DNA of 22,158 nt from a virus, in the IMG/VR virus record IMGVR_UViG_3300025141_000862, positions 1-22,158 of that record. One strand, 5' to 3'. The first letter of the stretch is position 1; every line of letters starts with the position of its first letter. The translations under genes and the position numbers were made by a program. This document shows, one piece after another, positions 3 to 11,488 of this stretch. The notes under the pieces were generated by a model that did no database searches, was not told the origin of the DNA, and saw only the letters and a list, made by a program, of their open reading frames with translations.

Positions 3-497
3 GCTAGCCATAATAAGATTTTTGGTGGCCTCACGGTCGATGGCTCTTGGTCTGCCGGCTACTTGGGAAATGATGAATATATTCCAGTGTTTGGTTCTGA
101 TTTCAATGTTCGTGAGTATGACAAAACTGGTCGCCCTCAATCAACAGCTATCGAAGGTCAATTCACAAATGGGACAGGAGGCGCTATCCGAATTCCTGCT
201 GGTGCCAGCATGGGGCCCTCATACGCTATGAAGATTATTCCTAAGGCTTACGAAGCATTTGCTTTTATTGTGCATGGTACTATATCTCCTACTTACAATG
301 TCAGAGCTTTTAGTTCTACACTCGATAGCAACACCGTGACGAATCTTCAAGCTGCCCCCGGCGCGCAAAATACAACACATACTTTTACTAGTGTAGTTCC
401 CGGAGATGGTTCCAATTATGTTGCTATATATTTCGAGCCAGCAAATATCAACTCTGAGGTGTTTGGTGGTAAAATTTTTATAAGAAAGAAAACATGA
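3..497 (+). CDS. Putative virion protein, 5'-truncated (tandem paralog 1)
   Basis: The reading frame is open to the left edge of the window, so the true start lies outside it; 164 residues are visible. A TTG inside the frame at 63 is unlikely to be the start, because the residues before it (TVDGSWSAGY) match the next gene. The two proteins share most residues from TVD through the final GGKIFIRKKT, including NVREY, RPQSTAIEGQ, AIRIPAG, SYAMKIIP, RAFSS and PGDGSNYV. The composition is beta-rich with no signal peptide or membrane segment. I do not recognise the family. Its place at the head of a phage structural block suggests a capsid decoration or tail-appendage protein, which is inference. 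The next gene begins 13 bases downstream. Confidence 0.75.
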   Translation, partial: ASHNKIFGGLTVDGSWSAGYLGNDEYIPVFGSDFNVREYDKTGRPQSTAIEGQFTNGTGGAIRIPAGASMGPSYAMKIIPKAYEAFAFIVHGTISPTYNVRAFSSTLDSNTVTNLQAAPGAQNTTHTFTSVVPGDGSNYVAIYFEPANINSEVFGGKIFIRKKT

Positions 498-510
498 GGG
501 GGATTAATTA

Positions 511-1023
511 ATGTCAAGATTTAGACCAAGCCCAAATTATATTTCTGATTCCATCACAGTCGATGATGGCTGGTCTGCTGGTTACTTGGGAAATAGTGAG
601 TATATCCCGTTATTGGGGACTGATTTTAATGTTCGCGAGTATGCATCAACTAGTCGCCCTCAATCAACAGCTATCGAAGGTCAATATACAGCTACAGTTG
701 GCGCGGGTGCTATCCGAATTCCTGCTGGCACTTCCGCTGGTGCTTCGTATGCTATGAAGATTATTCCCAGAGCCTATGAGGCATACGCCTTCATCATCCG
801 TGGGACCGTAACCCCTCTTTATAGCCTCAGAGCTTTTAGTTCCGCACTTGATAGCACGGCTGTGACGGATCTTCAGCTTTTCTTCGGCGCTCAAAATGTA
901 ATACATACTTTTACTAGTGCTGTTCCCGGAGACGGATCAAATTATGTTATTATAAGTTTCCAGCCGACGAATTCCAGCGATGAGGTGTTTGGTGGTAAAA
1001 TCTTTATAAGAAAGAAGACATAA
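511..1023 (+). CDS. Putative virion protein (tandem paralog 2)
   Basis: A 170-residue protein with an ATG start preceded by a GA-rich Shine-Dalgarno (gaggggg, about 8 bases upstream). It is a complete copy of the family seen in the truncated gene to its left. Residues from about 16 to the end align throughout with small indels (near residues 60 and 115) and the same C-terminus, GGKIFIRKKT. The first 15 residues (MSRFRPSPNYISDS) are unlike the visible part of the neighbour. Predicted beta-rich, soluble, no signal peptide. No recognised family. The methyltransferase gene starts 9 bases downstream, so the three genes are probably co-transcribed. A structural role is inferred from context only. 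Confidence 0.8.
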   Translation: MSRFRPSPNYISDSITVDDGWSAGYLGNSEYIPLLGTDFNVREYASTSRPQSTAIEGQYTATVGAGAIRIPAGTSAGASYAMKIIPRAYEAYAFIIRGTVTPLYSLRAFSSALDSTAVTDLQLFFGAQNVIHTFTSAVPGDGSNYVIISFQPTNSSDEVFGGKIFIRKKT

Positions 1024-1032
1024 GGGGCGCGA

Positions 1033-1683
1033 ATGTTAGAACAAGAATTTATTTTAGATGAAAACCAAAAAGAGCTTTTACTTAAAGATTCAAAACACCA
1101 AGTGATGATGGAATGGGAAAAACCCTATATGGAGGCGATTATTGATGAAATAAAGCCTACTGGTAATGTTCTTGAAATTGGATTTGGGTGTGGCTATTCG
1201 GCAACACGAATTCAGCACTATAATCCAAAAAGTCATACAATAATTGAATGCGACACTACAGTAATCCAGAGGTGCAAAAACTGGTCAGAAAAATATAAGA
1301 ATATTAACATTATTCATAATACTTGGCAAAAAGCTTTATCTTCTGTGGGAGAGTTTGATTTTATATTTTTTGATGACTATCCTCTCGAAACATTTGAAGA
1401 GGTTACAAAAGAAAATTTATTACAATTCAGAGCAGATCAGGAAAGGCTCTATATGTTTATTGATATTTGTTTAGATTGGCATATGAAGCCTGAATCGATC
1501 TTGTCGTGTTATTTAAATTCTTCTGAAAGCAAATTCAATAATTCGCGCTGGAAGGACCTAATTATAGAGAACCCGAGAATTTTATATAAAGAAAAGATAA
1601 TAGATATAGAAATCCCAAAAAATTGTAATTATTTTAAAGGAAACAACAAGGTTGTTATTCCGATAATTAAAAAAGTTGGATAA
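1033..1683 (+). CDS. GAMT-like SAM-dependent methyltransferase
   Basis: A 216-residue class I SAM-dependent methyltransferase resembling guanidinoacetate N-methyltransferase (GAMT; about 236 residues in animals) and the related arginine methyltransferase RMT2. Visible signatures in order: WEKPYM at 28-33 (GAMT has WETPYM, whose Glu contacts the guanidino group); SAM motif I, LEIGFGCGYSA, at 47-57; IIEC at 70-73, with the ribose-binding acidic residue E72; TW at 97-98; FDDYPL at 113-118 (GAMT YDTYPL, whose Asp is the second guanidino ligand; D114 here); a post-motif KPESILSCYLNSS near 152-164; and a C-terminal NCNYF strand like GAMT DCRYY. Both guanidino-binding acids appear retained. The substrate is unknown; a small guanidino compound or a protein arginine is possible. 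It lies 9 bases after a structural gene and 14 bases before bS21. The start has a Shine-Dalgarno (aagggg). Confidence 0.8.
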   Translation: MLEQEFILDENQKELLLKDSKHQVMMEWEKPYMEAIIDEIKPTGNVLEIGFGCGYSATRIQHYNPKSHTIIECDTTVIQRCKNWSEKYKNINIIHNTWQKALSSVGEFDFIFFDDYPLETFEEVTKENLLQFRADQERLYMFIDICLDWHMKPESILSCYLNSSESKFNNSRWKDLIIENPRILYKEKIIDIEIPKNCNYFKGNNKVVIPIIKKVG

Positions 1684-1697
1684 ATTATGGAGATAAA

Positions 1698-1919
1698 ATG
1701 TCAAAAAAACCAGTGAATATATCAGTCAAGCCCAGAGGCCGGAATGATACTCCGCAGAGAATGATAAAAAGATTTATAAAGAAGGTCAAAAAAGAAAAAA
1801 TCTTAGAAACTTATCGTGAAACCTTGCGATATGAAAAGCCTTCTGAGAAAAGAAGGGAAAAAAAGAAAAGAAGAAAGCAAGTTCTTAAAAAACTTGCTGA
1901 GGAAAATAAAATAAAATAA
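1698..1919 (+). CDS. rpsU: Ribosomal protein bS21 homolog
   Basis: A 73-residue, very basic protein (bacterial bS21 is about 71). The order of features matches bS21: a short N-terminal strand (NISVKPRG), then NDTPQRMIKRFIKKVKKEKIL like the bacterial helix 1 region, then ETLRYEKPSEKRREKKKRRKQ like the REFYEKPTxERKRAK segment, and a Lys-rich C-terminal helix. bS21 binds the 30S platform near the anti-Shine-Dalgarno end of 16S rRNA and helps initiation. Phage-encoded bS21 is known from uncultivated and marine phages, where it is proposed to replace or supplement the host protein on ribosomes late in infection. The start has ggag 7 bases upstream. It follows the methyltransferase by 14 bases; a 50-base gap with an AT-rich inverted repeat follows. 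Confidence 0.9.
   Translation: MSKKPVNISVKPRGRNDTPQRMIKRFIKKVKKEKILETYRETLRYEKPSEKRREKKKRRKQVLKKLAEENKIK
1876..1898 (+). repeat. Hairpin in the 3' end of the bS21 gene
   Basis: Perfect 8-bp inverted repeat (agcaagtt / aacttgct) with a 7-base loop inside the bS21 coding region. It is not followed by a T run, so it is not a standard terminator. It could be chance or a weak RNA structure. Confidence 0.3.
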
Positions 1920-3470: not shown

Positions 3471-5186
3471 ATGTCTATACTTAAAAAATTAACTGAAGGT
3501 ATTGTTCGTCGCGATCTATCTAAAGAAGGATCTGCTCTTCTCTCCAAGTGGGAAAAGACTGGACTTTTAGAGGGACTCGGGAACGAACGTGCTAAATATG
3601 GGATGGCAGCATTGCTAGAAAACCAAGCGAAGGAACTACTTCGTGAGGCTTCTACTATGGCCGGCACACCCTCTGGAGACGTTGAAGGTTTTGCTTCCGT
3701 CGCCTTTCCTATTGTCCGTCGAGTATTCGGCGGCCTAATCGCTAACGATCTTGTTAGCGTTCAACCAATGAGCCTTCCTTCGGGACTCATTTTCTTCCTG
3801 GATTTCACCTACGATCGTAATCGTCTTGATACCCTTAGTGGTTCTTCGATATACGGTGGTGGTGTTGTTGCATCGCAGATTACTGGTGGTGTTTCACTTG
3901 CTGGCGATCTCGCTGAACAAAGCTATTATGCTTTGAACAATGGGTATTCAAGTCCAACAGGATCCGCCAACTTCACATTGGCCGATTTTGCATCAGGTAC
4001 AGTCGGCTCTGGAGTTCCAGGCGACTGGACAGGCAACACAGCCACCGGCATCGCTCTCGCATTGCACGGTGATCGCCTAGTCCGCTTCGATCCAGACTTG
4101 GAATCAGGCTCTTTTGCTTGTGTTTCAACTTTGCCTCTGGCAACCCTCACCGCCGGCCAGTTTAACATTAAAGATCTCGTCACTGTGACTCTTAACGATG
4201 CAGCCGGTGTTGTCGATGTTAATCAAGTCAGACGCCTGACTCGTGATGACCCCGATACTGCTGGTTCTGTCTTACTGGTTAACGCAGGGCTCGCATCTGC
4301 CAACGCCTGCGCAACCGACCTTGTTTTACAGAATACAGCATCATTTGTTATTGATGACAACTTCGCCGCCATTGGCGCGGTTGGTTCTGTATCTGGTCTA
4401 GATACATGGGGATTGGAAAACAATGCGGCAATTCCAGAAATTGACATCAAGGTTGATTCTGTGGCTGTCACTGCGAAGACCAAGAAACTCAAAGCGAAAT
4501 GGACACCAGAATTGGCTCAAGACTTGAACGCATACCATAACTTGGATGCCGAAGTCGAATTGACCTCAATTCTGTCCGAGCACATCGCTCTTGAAATCGA
4601 CCAAGAAATCTTGGAAGATCTCGTGAAGGGTGCTACTGCTGAAACCTTGTTCTGGTCACGACTTCCTGGTAAATTTGTAAATCGGACAACTGGTGCACCA
4701 CTAATTCCAACTAGTGGGTTTCCTGACTTCACGGGTAATGTATCCGAGTGGTATGAAACCTTGATTGAGACCATCAATGATGTCTCGGCCCAAATTCACC
4801 GCAAGACCCTTCGAGGCGGCGCTAACTTCATCGTGTGTTCACCTGAAGTTGCTAACCTCCTTGAGTTTACCGCTGGATTCCGTGGTGCCGTGACTCACGA
4901 TGATGATCGTGGTCAAGTTGGTGCTGTTAAAGTCGGCTCTTTGAGCAAGAAGTTTGACGTTTACGTCGATCCTTACTTCCCACGGAACGTTGTTCTCGCA
5001 GGACGTAAAGGTTCTTCTTTCCTTGAAAGCGGATATGTGTACGCACCGTATGTACCTCTCCAGATGACTCCAACAATCTTCGGTACCGAGGACTTCGTGC
5101 CGCGCAAAGGCGTCATGACTCGATATGCCAAGAAGATGGTCCGCCCGGATATGTACGGCTTGGTCGTCGTTCAAGATTTGTCATAG
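3471..5186 (+). CDS. gp23: Major capsid protein (T4 gp23-like)
   Basis: A 571-residue protein (T4 gp23 is 521) forming the head lattice. The N-terminal LLSKWEKTGLLEGL and ALLENQAKELL align with T4 LLNKWKPLLEG and IFENQEKDF. They are followed by AFPIVRRVFGGLIANDLVSV, like the gp23 region VRRAIPNLIAFDICGVQPM. T4 gp23 is cut by the prohead protease after FLTE; here the equivalent is L57-R58-E59 before A60, so mature protein probably starts at A60. An aaggag Shine-Dalgarno precedes the ATG. Codon use differs from the neighbours: arginine is almost always CGN rather than AGA/AGG and C-ending codons are common, as expected for the most abundant product. It follows the scaffold gene and ends just before a strong terminator. 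No separate vertex (gp24-like) gene is visible here. Confidence 0.93.
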   Translation: MSILKKLTEGIVRRDLSKEGSALLSKWEKTGLLEGLGNERAKYGMAALLENQAKELLREASTMAGTPSGDVEGFASVAFPIVRRVFGGLIANDLVSVQPMSLPSGLIFFLDFTYDRNRLDTLSGSSIYGGGVVASQITGGVSLAGDLAEQSYYALNNGYSSPTGSANFTLADFASGTVGSGVPGDWTGNTATGIALALHGDRLVRFDPDLESGSFACVSTLPLATLTAGQFNIKDLVTVTLNDAAGVVDVNQVRRLTRDDPDTAGSVLLVNAGLASANACATDLVLQNTASFVIDDNFAAIGAVGSVSGLDTWGLENNAAIPEIDIKVDSVAVTAKTKKLKAKWTPELAQDLNAYHNLDAEVELTSILSEHIALEIDQEILEDLVKGATAETLFWSRLPGKFVNRTTGAPLIPTSGFPDFTGNVSEWYETLIETINDVSAQIHRKTLRGGANFIVCSPEVANLLEFTAGFRGAVTHDDDRGQVGAVKVGSLSKKFDVYVDPYFPRNVVLAGRKGSSFLESGYVYAPYVPLQMTPTIFGTEDFVPRKGVMTRYAKKMVRPDMYGLVVVQDLS

Positions 5187-8054: not shown

Positions 8055-10892
8055 ATGTCAGTAAGAAAATTTAAGTTTGTTTCGCCGGGAGTTTTTGTCA
8101 AAGAAATTGACAATTCCCAACTTCCAGCCGTAGACACACCAGCCGGTCCTATAATTTTCGGGCGGCTCCCGCAAGGTCCGGGAATGCGACCTGTTAAGAT
8201 CGACTCGTTTTCGGATTTTGTCCAGACATTCGGAAATCCTATTCCTGGGAAGGCCACTGGAGATGTCTGGAGAGATGGAAACCACCAGGGGACCACTTAT
8301 GCTTCATATGCTGCTCAGGCTTACCTAAGAGCGGATGTTGGATCTATTACGGTTATGAGGCTTCTTGGTGAAGCAAACGCCGATGCTGTGAATCCAGATG
8401 GGTATGCTGGGTGGCAAACAGTCCAGTCGCCCGCAACAGCGGTTTCAGATAACGGAGGGGCATATGGGATCTTTATATGTCAATCTGGCTCTGGAGCTAC
8501 CAAATCAGGTCATTTGGGTGCAATTTTTTATATGGATTCTGGCTCTGCCCTTATTCTTACCGGAACCGTGGCCCATACGGGAACCGCAATTGTCTCTGGT
8601 GGCGCCGCAGGACTATTCGAGGCCGCATCTGATACCCCCGAATGGACAGCCGCAATTTCTAATAGCACTGGGGAAATTTATAAAAGTTCCTTCAATTTTG
8701 ACAGAAATAGTTCAAGATTTATTAGAAATGTTTTTAATACTAATCCACAAACAGTTAATTCTGCTGTCGTTCCCTCTGGCGGCTTCTCTAACGGTGAAAC
8801 TGAATATTGGCTTGGTGAAAGTTTCGAATCTTATATCGCAGAAAAGATGGGCGATGGTACTTTGGGCACCTCCTCTTACGCAGTAGTTTTGGCTGTAAAA
8901 GAGAAAGATGATCAACGCCAGGATTCCCAACTAGCTCATACTGGATGGTTTTTCTCACAAGATTTGTCAAGTAATACTGGCTCTTATGAGGCCAGCAAGA
9001 TGAAAGATTTATTCCGGTTGCATGCGAGAGATGCAGGTTCGTGGCTACAAAATAATTTAAAAGTATCAATTCAAGATTTAAAATATTCAAGAAATGCAGC
9101 AGGAATCAATCCTTTTGGAAGCTTCACGGTTCTCTTGAGGAAGGCAGATGATACAGATAACGTTGTAGAGGTTATCGAAAGATATTCCAATTGTAACCTA
9201 AACCCCAATTCAGATAATTATATCGCGCGCAAGATCGGCGACAGAGTTGTGAATTGGAATACAACAACAAAGGTTCTTCAAGAGCTGGGGACATATGCCA
9301 ACATTTCTAAATATATCAGAGTGGAAGTACATCCCGATGTAGAAAATGGCCAAATCGATCCACGATTGTTGCCATTTGGAGTTTATGGGCCCGAAAAGCT
9401 CATTGATATAGCTGCGCAGCCCACAGCGATGAGCCCTACAAGTGTTTTATATAACGGTGACGACATCGCGTTGAGCATGTGCACCAGTCCAGCTCCAAAT
9501 TTATTCAGCGGCACACTCCCGACCTATGGCTTAACTTGTTCTTTCCCTGATACACAAGTTCGTATCTCTGCGTCGGCCGGCGCCCTCACAAATCCCCAAG
9601 ATGCTTATTTTGGTCTAAATGTTTCTTCTTATCTCGAAATTACGGGTGAAGGAAGCAACAGGCCAGATGAAGGATATGGTGATTATCTTTATTCCATTCC
9701 GCCAAATTTCCGGGATTCCACTAACTTGACTTATCAGTGGATTGTAAGCCTCGATGATTTGATTTTAACCGGCTCGAATGTTGTTTACTGGCAATCGGGA
9801 TCGAGATCTGACGGAGACTCAATCACAGCGGGCGGAACTTATCAAACTCTGGTTGATACAGGATACACGAGATTCACATCTCCATTTTATGATGGTTTCG
9901 ACGGCCTGGATATTATAGAAATTGAGCCATTTAGGAACACCCTTTTAAGTGAGGGGAGTACCTTAACTAACTATGCTCAAAATACTATCCGACGAGCAAT
10001 TGACACGGTTGCCGATTCTGAGTTTATAGAGTGTAATATGATGAGCATGCCGGGATTGACAGATGCAACACTTACCGAACATATGATTCAGGTTTGTGAA
10101 GACCGGGGAGATGCCCTGGCTATTATCGACATCCCAGGCGCCTATACCCCGTTTTCGGAGGGAACTGCATATTATAGCAATGCTGCCAATAGAGTTGGAA
10201 CTGTTTCGAGCACGGTCTCAACCTTGGAATCGAGACAAATTAATAGCTCCTATGGTTGCACCTATTACCCATGGGTTCAGATTAAAGATACCATTAACGG
10301 GAATCTTGTATGGGTACCCCCAAGTATTATAGCATTGGGTACATTTGCAAGCTCTGAGGCTGTATCGGAACTGTGGTTTGCTCCCGCAGGATTTAATCGC
10401 GGTGGACTTACCGAAGGCTCAGCCGGGATTCCGGTCTTGAATGTGACCTACAGATTGACCTCTAAAGACAGAGATGATTTGTACGAAGCAAGTATTAATC
10501 CTATAGCCTCTTTCCCGAATGAGGGATTGGTAATCTTTGGTCAGAAAACGCTACAATCGGTACCCTCTGCACTTGATAGAATCAATGTTCGAAGAATGTT
10601 GATTTATGTTAAAAAACAAATTTCACTGATGGCGTCTAGCATTCTTTTCGACCCCAATGTACAAGTTACTTGGAATAGATTCAAATCGCAAGCAGAGCCA
10701 TTCCTTTCAAGTGTCCAGACAAGACTGGGAATAAGCGAATACAAATTAGTTCTAGATAAGAGTACAACTACTCCAGATTTAGTTGACCAGAATATTGTAT
10801 ATGCTAAAATCTTCTTGAAACCCACTAGAGCAATTGAATTCATCGCAATTGATTTCATAATTACGAACACTGGAGCGGGTTTTGAAGATTAA
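8055..10892 (+). CDS. gp18: Tail sheath protein (T4 gp18-like)
   Basis: A 945-residue contractile sheath subunit, far longer than T4 gp18 (659). The N-terminus, FVSPGVFVKEIDNSQ followed by PAGPIIFGRLPQGPG and later SITVMRLLG, is the standard sheath start. The C-terminal domain is also typical: YEASINPIASFPNEGLVIFG, QKTLQSVPSALDRINVRRML, YVKKQISLMASSILFDPN and a final strand EFIAIDFIIT. These ends form the inner, sheath-to-sheath and sheath-to-tube contacts. The extra length lies in the middle, from about residue 110 to 560, and includes Gly/Ser/Thr-rich beta stretches, so it probably makes protruding outer domains. Strong aggaga Shine-Dalgarno. Preceded by the 122-base leader with motif copy 4 and followed by the tube gene after 44 bases. 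Confidence 0.93.
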   Translation: MSVRKFKFVSPGVFVKEIDNSQLPAVDTPAGPIIFGRLPQGPGMRPVKIDSFSDFVQTFGNPIPGKATGDVWRDGNHQGTTYASYAAQAYLRADVGSITVMRLLGEANADAVNPDGYAGWQTVQSPATAVSDNGGAYGIFICQSGSGATKSGHLGAIFYMDSGSALILTGTVAHTGTAIVSGGAAGLFEAASDTPEWTAAISNSTGEIYKSSFNFDRNSSRFIRNVFNTNPQTVNSAVVPSGGFSNGETEYWLGESFESYIAEKMGDGTLGTSSYAVVLAVKEKDDQRQDSQLAHTGWFFSQDLSSNTGSYEASKMKDLFRLHARDAGSWLQNNLKVSIQDLKYSRNAAGINPFGSFTVLLRKADDTDNVVEVIERYSNCNLNPNSDNYIARKIGDRVVNWNTTTKVLQELGTYANISKYIRVEVHPDVENGQIDPRLLPFGVYGPEKLIDIAAQPTAMSPTSVLYNGDDIALSMCTSPAPNLFSGTLPTYGLTCSFPDTQVRISASAGALTNPQDAYFGLNVSSYLEITGEGSNRPDEGYGDYLYSIPPNFRDSTNLTYQWIVSLDDLILTGSNVVYWQSGSRSDGDSITAGGTYQTLVDTGYTRFTSPFYDGFDGLDIIEIEPFRNTLLSEGSTLTNYAQNTIRRAIDTVADSEFIECNMMSMPGLTDATLTEHMIQVCEDRGDALAIIDIPGAYTPFSEGTAYYSNAANRVGTVSSTVSTLESRQINSSYGCTYYPWVQIKDTINGNLVWVPPSIIALGTFASSEAVSELWFAPAGFNRGGLTEGSAGIPVLNVTYRLTSKDRDDLYEASINPIASFPNEGLVIFGQKTLQSVPSALDRINVRRMLIYVKKQISLMASSILFDPNVQVTWNRFKSQAEPFLSSVQTRLGISEYKLVLDKSTTTPDLVDQNIVYAKIFLKPTRAIEFIAIDFIITNTGAGFED

Positions 10893-10906
10893 AAATAAAT
10901 TTATCA

Positions 10907-10915
10907 ACTATTTAA
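10907..10915 (+). promoter_or_regulatory. Intergenic motif ACTAWTTAW, copy 5
   Basis: Sequence ACTATTTAA in the 44-base gap between sheath and tube genes, ending 21 bases before the tube ATG. Confidence 0.45.
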
Positions 10916-10936
10916 AGATACAGGAGAAACAATATT

Positions 10937-11488
10937 ATGGCTGGTAGTGATTTTTGGACGAGTGCCAATGTAGAACCAAAAAGAAAATATAGATTTTTAG
11001 TGCAATTCGCTGGGGGCGGATCTGATATTGGACAGATGTGGTTTGCAAAAACTGTTAAAAAGCCAGAAATTTCAGTAAACGCCCAAGAACATGCTTATCT
11101 TAACCACAAATTTTATTTTCCCGGCACGGTAGAATGGGCCTTGGTCACAATGACCTTGGTGGACCCAGTTTCCCCCGATGCCGCCCAACAGATGGCGCAG
11201 ATTTTAGACAGGTCTGGATATCCAGGCCCTAAAGAGTTGAATGATCCCAACCCGGAAACCATATCAAAGTTTAAATCTGTAGCTTCCTTGGGACAAGTTA
11301 AAATAACACAAATCGATTCAGAGGGAAATTCCATTGAGGAATGGACACTGAACAACGCTTTTATTACAAAGGTCGCTTATGGTGAGTTATCTTACGGTGA
11401 TGACGCTCTAACGGAGATCTCTTTAGATATCCGATACGATTGGGCCACACTGAATACTTCCACAGGCGCCCAATTCTGGCAGACATAA
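10937..11488 (+). CDS. gp19: Tail tube protein (T4 gp19-like)
   Basis: A 183-residue protein (T4 gp19 is 163). The start SDFWTSANVEPKRKYRFLVQ, then MWFAKTVKKPEISV, WALVTMTLVDP and the C-terminal LNNAFITKVAYGELSYGDD with DIRYDWATL are the hallmarks of the gp19 tube fold. Hexamer rings stack to form the tail lumen inside the sheath. It lies directly after the sheath as in T4 18-19. A caggaga Shine-Dalgarno precedes the ATG. A second, longer paralog is encoded at 12585. Confidence 0.92.
   Translation: MAGSDFWTSANVEPKRKYRFLVQFAGGGSDIGQMWFAKTVKKPEISVNAQEHAYLNHKFYFPGTVEWALVTMTLVDPVSPDAAQQMAQILDRSGYPGPKELNDPNPETISKFKSVASLGQVKITQIDSEGNSIEEWTLNNAFITKVAYGELSYGDDALTEISLDIRYDWATLNTSTGAQFWQT

Follow-up and report, generated by a model that had tools for sequence, protein, structure and literature searches.

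A GAMT-family methyltransferase gene in a T4-like phage structural gene run, its linkage to an upstream beta-domain protein, and a proposed role in virion-protein arginine methylation

The window, meaning the whole stretch of DNA analysed, is an entire virus record of 22,158 bp. It carries a T4-like run of head and tail genes, with a Gp23-type capsid protein, sheath, tube and baseplate genes, which bears out the phage late-operon setting that the initial annotation had given to a GAMT-like methyltransferase gene. The features used in this study are as follows.

3..497, plus strand: second copy of the beta-domain protein, cut by the window edge
511..1023, plus strand: beta-domain protein, 170 aa, directly upstream of the methyltransferase; likely virion surface or decoration protein and proposed substrate
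1033..1683, plus strand: GAMT-like SAM-dependent methyltransferase, 216 aa, with an ATG start, stop included
1698..1919, plus strand: phage homologue of ribosomal protein bS21, 73 aa, within a head gene cluster; a neighbour, probably outside the system
3471..5186, plus strand: Gp23-type major capsid protein, head gene cluster context
8055..11488, plus strand: tail sheath (8055-10892) and tail tube (10937-11488), late-gene context

ORF 1033-1683 begins 9 bp past the stop of ORF 511-1023, and the bS21 gene starts 14 bp further on. The tail sheath protein (8055-10892) is 945 aa, which is long for its family, and the PHROG profile spans it with a large insertion.

We compared the protein of ORF 1033-1683 with PDB chains by phmmer. 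The results showed matches to the GAMT entries 1xcj, 1p1b, 1khh and 3orh at E 5e-16 to 1.7e-14 (5e-16 for rat GAMT), with the best non-GAMT family at E 2e-4. With a 57-sequence family profile, GAMT was reached at E about 2e-36 and the runner-up family at 7.6e-8. The AF2 model of the 216-aa protein (pLDDT 92.1, pTM 0.89) was aligned by VIA-align to human GAMT (3orh_D) with Z 23.9 and an rmsd of 2.2 A over 198 residues, and to 1xcj with Z 23.4; GAMT covered the protein end to end, and the top non-GAMT structural match was spermine synthase (Z 16.5). Structure prediction and comparison with GAMT had been proposed as a check on the initial annotation, and a better match to another methyltransferase family had been named as grounds for rejecting it. 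By sequence, profile and fold alike, GAMT outscored the other class I methyltransferases, in the structural comparison by a wide margin. The GAMT signatures claimed earlier were all found, namely W28-E29-K-P-Y-M, L47-E-I-G-F-G, I70-I-E-C, D114-D-Y-P-L and N-C-N-Y200-F. ORF 1033-1683 encodes a complete methyltransferase of the GAMT family, and its membership in this fold family is close to certain. PHROGs and NCBIfam assigned no specific family to the protein. The sole Pfam match above cut-off, RrnaAD (27.9 bits), covered residues 30-96 and was set aside as a generic SAM-domain match. The gene differs from its nearest relative, L002, by 7 synonymous and 7 nonsynonymous changes (dS 0.062, dN 0.013), and these few changes suggest purifying selection.

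In the alignment, E29 corresponded to rat GAMT E45 and D114 to rat D134, ungapped around both, so the claim that the protein retains both acids that hold the guanidino group in animal GAMT stands. From this alignment and the overall fold match, E29 and D114 would be placed in the substrate pocket. Both residues were present in 73/73 viral and 20/21 cellular sequences, and Y200 was kept in all 73 viral ones; the conservation of E29 among the viral sequences is partly built in, because E29 was part of some search patterns of the viral-contig profile scans, while D114, D115 and Y200 were part of none. The invariance of E29 and D114 points to a guanidinium-type group as the target. The position right after the catalytic Asp, D115, was Asp in 71/73 viral sequences. 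Rat GAMT (Thr135) and the cyanobacterial protein L193 have Thr there; the window protein, with D115 in its place, lacks the Thr135 expected of the creatine enzyme (K00542).

Relatives were collected by two profile scans of viral contigs, which found 100 and 121 relatives, and by a genome scan, which found 11. The cluster counts below are samples, since 80 relatives were retained from each viral scan. Clustering of these and the other loci at 90% identity gave 84 clusters, 74 viral (the phage record LR745206 included) and 10 cellular; L097 fell under the family cut-off and was dropped. L005, short and out of frame at its contig end, was excluded from the tree; its GAMT-like gene (L005:2-435) is broken across two frames, through either a sequencing error or a broken gene. 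With the window protein as query, phage records and plasmid records each gave one relative at E < 0.01; a Streptomyces match in those searches had E 4e-3, and a Vibrio phage matched the L007 protein at E 9e-4. Among cellular genomes, relatives were found in 2/274 genomes of the class of Planctobacterium (one being the query genome), in 1/194 genomes from the phylum to which the cyanobacterial MAG belongs (only the query genome itself), and in 27/151 genomes of the phylum of the chlamydial MAG. In the 95-row tree, rat GAMT grouped with the single cyanobacterial protein L193 (100/99). The window protein did not group with animal GAMT and lay in a five-row viral clade with fibre-linked proteins (99/92). 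L193, from a cyanobacterial MAG, keeps the GAMT-specific residues and is a candidate bacterial creatine enzyme. The GAMT-like proteins of chlamydial MAGs (L088-L090, L194-L203) are about 285-343 aa, carry an insertion and lie near the window branch.

We then examined the gene directly 5' of the methyltransferase. The beta domain formed the final ~160 residues of the protein encoded there in 11 of the 84 sampled clusters, including that of the window, and the gaps between the domain gene and the methyltransferase gene ran from -4 to +13 bp at the loci listed. In the window lineage, the domain makes up a whole protein, present as two to three copies in tandem (three in L002) between the head maturation protease gene (seen in L002) and the capsid gene. 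Outside this lineage, it forms the C-terminal part of long fibre-like proteins of up to 1328 aa (L114). L014 and L015, although left out of model building, were recovered by the domain model at E about 5e-5. In the reverse direction, with the domain as query, 11 distinct contigs were reached and the methyltransferase immediately followed the domain in 11/11; L103 and L205 were found in this way before any methyltransferase query had reached either. All domain queries came from copies adjacent to a methyltransferase, and their reach is limited to close relatives. Linkage to the candidate substrate gene was consistent in both directions. The domain-linked methyltransferases comprised two supported clades (99/92 and 100/100) and L127. 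In L007, a 634-kb phage, the methyltransferase gene lies 15 bp after an ORF for a 762-aa fibre-like protein that does not match the domain model. The 73/84 clusters without an upstream domain mean that one substrate cannot fit the whole family.

The upstream protein itself gave limited structural information. Its best PDB matches, none better than E 1e-3, were to carbohydrate-binding modules and other beta-sandwich proteins, and its viral-library matches were mostly unnamed or tail-type proteins; with a weak fold model (pLDDT 64), we treat its predicted fold only as a beta sandwich. A search of phage records with the beta domain gave no matches. Among domain-bearing proteins, the PHROG tail fibre match had E 3e-11 in L011 and only E 0.006 in L004, and a PHROG search of those of L012 and L064 gave no match. 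From its gene position and from the fibre-like proteins that bear the domain, the beta-domain protein would be a virion protein.

Within the domain, an arginine lies in a loop 8-10 residues past a core D/E/Q-F, usually behind Ser or Thr, in 8/10 domain lineages, and the stretch around it is otherwise variable. None of 5000 shuffles reached eight lineages, in a control that ignores shared ancestry. The exceptions are L004, with the arginine at +13, and L015, whose loop has no arginine. In the weak model, the loop stretch is of low confidence and lacks any long strand. On this sequence pattern, R49 of ORF 511-1023 is a candidate methylation site. The loop arginine could also be structural, because among the 11 contigs reached by domain queries no domain copy without a methyltransferase was found.

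Elsewhere in the family, the neighbourhood is different. Among the first 64 clusters, 2OG-Fe(II)-oxygenase-type genes were found no more than four genes away in 31, adjacent in 21 and on both sides in 13, with group membership defined by single-linkage clustering and confirmed in part by Pfam. Pfam assigned 2OG_3 to 13 and 2OG_5 to 12 of 68 upstream neighbours, and to 13 and 8, respectively, of 58 downstream neighbours, with possible overlap between the two in each set. In two viral contigs (L055:94-1461 and L071:117-1406), the GAMT-like domain is fused to a C-terminal oxygenase-like domain in which HxD and H...R motifs were read by eye; that of L055 matched DUF6445 (E 1e-6), and NCBIfam gave no family for the fused part of L071. 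Trp_halogenase proteins directly follow the gene in two further viral contigs (L059:2395-3960, E 4e-102; L065:6629-7777, E 6e-38). Two other families occurred within four genes: one that includes a PHROG virion structural protein (phrog_3287 in L051), in 16/64 clusters, and a Gly-rich one (a PHROG of unknown function), in 11/64. Glycosyltransferase, carbamoyltransferase or sulfotransferase genes lie beside some clusters. PF13640 oxygenases were found in 0/8 fibre-linked virus records, the window record included, and we therefore assign the oxygenase context to other branches that do not overlap with the fibre-linked one.

Bacterial relatives occur in a further context. In Halomonas L096, a relative shares its cluster with a YhhA precursor and with YhhB, a radical SAM enzyme that here carries a fused aKG-HExxH hydroxylase domain; the cluster also encodes proteins that NCBIfam did not match. 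L095 and L098 have neighbours homologous to those of L096, the three loci covering Halomonas, Salinicola and Planctobacterium. Arginine methylation of a RiPP is possible in these YhhA/YhhB cyclophane-RiPP-type clusters. In L191, the GAMT-like gene adjoins an ORF read by eye as an NRPS-like adenylation domain.

Taken as a whole, we favour the reading that the GAMT-fold enzyme methylates an arginine of the adjacent virion protein, with R49 of ORF 511-1023 as the candidate, and we give this reading a probability of about 0.5. E29 and D114, probably together with D115, would hold the guanidinium group, and D114 would be the base that enables nucleophilic attack of the nitrogen on the SAM methyl group. 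In the viral branch, the guanidinium would most likely be part of a protein arginine rather than of guanidinoacetate; for the window lineage, the likeliest substrate would be the upstream beta-domain protein (511-1023 and its copies) at the conserved loop arginine. Methylation before assembly would give this arginine a different charge and hydrogen-bonding pattern on the surface of the virion, which may modulate binding to receptors, stability or accessibility to host enzymes. Other branches appear to act beside 2OG-Fe(II) oxygenases and flavin halogenases in protein- or peptide-tailoring sets. We tentatively extend this to ocean phages, which may possess a dedicated arginine-methylating GAMT branch for virion adhesin or decoration proteins, with a cognate beta domain in each lineage, as well as sister branches that work with 2OG hydroxylases and halogenases in sets that tailor virion proteins or peptides.

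The initial annotation had left the target open between a host metabolite and a protein arginine. The genomic context argues for a guanidinium carried by a protein or peptide and against creatine synthesis, so the protein-arginine branch has gained support and the metabolite branch has lost ground. As a creatine-type auxiliary metabolic gene, the enzyme would methylate free guanidinoacetate or another small guanidine, for example arginine, inside the infected cell. Its nearest solved relatives are GAMT, which itself uses a small molecule, a point that also weighs against the virion-protein reading; both guanidino-binding acids are kept, and nine ocean virus populations have been assigned GAMT K00542 in PMC11360552. 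However, the gene is wedged among structural genes and tracks either the beta domain or oxygenase genes and fusions, and the catalytic Asp is followed by Asp in nearly all viral sequences, as opposed to the Thr of rat GAMT and L193. Amidinotransferase PF02274 was likewise found in 0/8 virus records, the 634-kb one included, although a record may be only part of a genome and the substrate could come from the host. We consider creatine-type metabolism unlikely. We regard as distinctly unlikely that a small molecule or a short phage-made peptide is tailored together with 2OG oxygenases and halogenases, the fibre linkage then reflecting shared late expression. Such a role fits the oxygenase and halogenase neighbours, the fusions, and the bacterial homologues, which occur within a RiPP cluster and next to an NRPS-like adenylation domain; the glycosyltransferase, carbamoyltransferase and sulfotransferase neighbours would suit small-molecule or glycan work, which counts against a virion-protein substrate. 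Yet no precursor peptide or synthetase was noticed beside the viral genes in a non-systematic look, the beta-domain linkage holds across diverse viruses with tight gene spacing, and the window record is one of those in which PF13640 oxygenases were not found.

A target on the translation machinery, suggested earlier from the adjacent bS21 gene, fared poorly. Yeast RMT2, an arginine N-delta methyltransferase of ribosomal protein L12, is an example of a GAMT relative whose target is an arginine within a protein. In the same manner, the window enzyme could modify a ribosomal protein, either a host protein of the L12 type or the neighbouring phage bS21, which is basic but is not known to be a target of RMT2. 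A bS21 gene was present in 4/8 GAMT-carrying virus records searched. It adjoins the methyltransferase, however, in only 2/84 sampled clusters, the window lineage and its relative L005 (bS21 at L005:436-684), and lies about 18 kb away in G013 and about 51 kb away in W01, two of the four records that hold it; bS21 was ruled out as a general partner, and modification of a ribosomal protein is the least probable of the readings considered. That the target is an unrelated protein or another kind of group, and the adjacent virion gene not the substrate, appears very unlikely to us. The other neighbours seen in 73/84 clusters allow for it, as does the indirect nature of the case for a virion-protein substrate, but the invariant E29/D114 pair favours a guanidinium-type group and the linkage with the beta domain is reciprocal.

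GAMT homologues in ocean viruses were already known, and the earlier remark that such enzymes are not usual phage cargo needs qualification in this respect. According to PMC11360552 (2024), nine ocean virus populations carry GAMT, enriched 85.4-fold over microbial homologues; it was the most virus-enriched metabolic gene of that survey and was read as creatine synthesis, with a creatine/hypoxia hypothesis. A literature search on phage GAMT, RMT2, RiPP GAMT and tail-fibre hydroxylation or methylation gave nothing beyond PMC11360552, PMC13288928, PMC3037559 and PMC11002830, and in the literature searched we found no paper that links a GAMT-like enzyme to virion proteins. Nor did this search turn up any published account of the beta-domain linkage, of the oxygenase or halogenase neighbours, of the fusion proteins, of the RiPP-cluster relatives or of the new functional reading. 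If the virion-protein reading is true, the survey's creatine conclusion on viral GAMT falls, and the "creatine" gene that it ranked highest for virus enrichment would belong to protein modification and not to metabolism. It would also add a new layer to phage biology, in which enzymes chemically tailor the contact surface of the particle. Mass spectrometry in PMC13288928 (2026) detected methylated Lys and Arg on structural proteins of phages, among them a putative tail fibre; its authors state that these phages are not known to encode methyltransferases. The enzyme described here is a phage-encoded candidate for arginine methylation of such proteins.

Compared with known systems, the window protein resembles animal GAMT (3orh, 1xcj, 1khh) in its whole-chain fold (23% identity over the 198 aligned residues), the WE-x-PYM and SAM motifs, the E45/D134 pair and the C-terminal C-x-Y motif. 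It differs in having Asp for Thr at the D115 position, M26 for Glu and Y55 for Ile, and in being viral, inside structural gene runs and on a separate branch of the tree. Yeast RMT2 has an extra N-terminal region, and the 216-aa window protein has none. The ocean-virus GAMT (K00542) is probably of the same family, a match not based on sequence comparison; it was read as creatine biosynthesis in PMC11360552, whereas the context described here favours protein or peptide tailoring. Some YhhA/YhhB cyclophane RiPP clusters (NF041705, NF041707) hold a GAMT-like gene, suggesting a peptide substrate, and YhhB acts at Arg, coupling Tyr or His to its beta carbon according to PMC11002830; these clusters differ in being bacterial, on a distant branch and directed at a short peptide, with a putative role for the GAMT-like gene. 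T4-like cyanophages encode 2OG-Fe(II) oxygenases and PrnA tryptophan halogenases (PMC3037559), for which that paper's main text, where the word "methyltransferase" is absent, proposes a role of the oxygenases in 2OG/nitrogen signalling; in many of the viral contigs studied here, such enzymes adjoin a GAMT-like gene.
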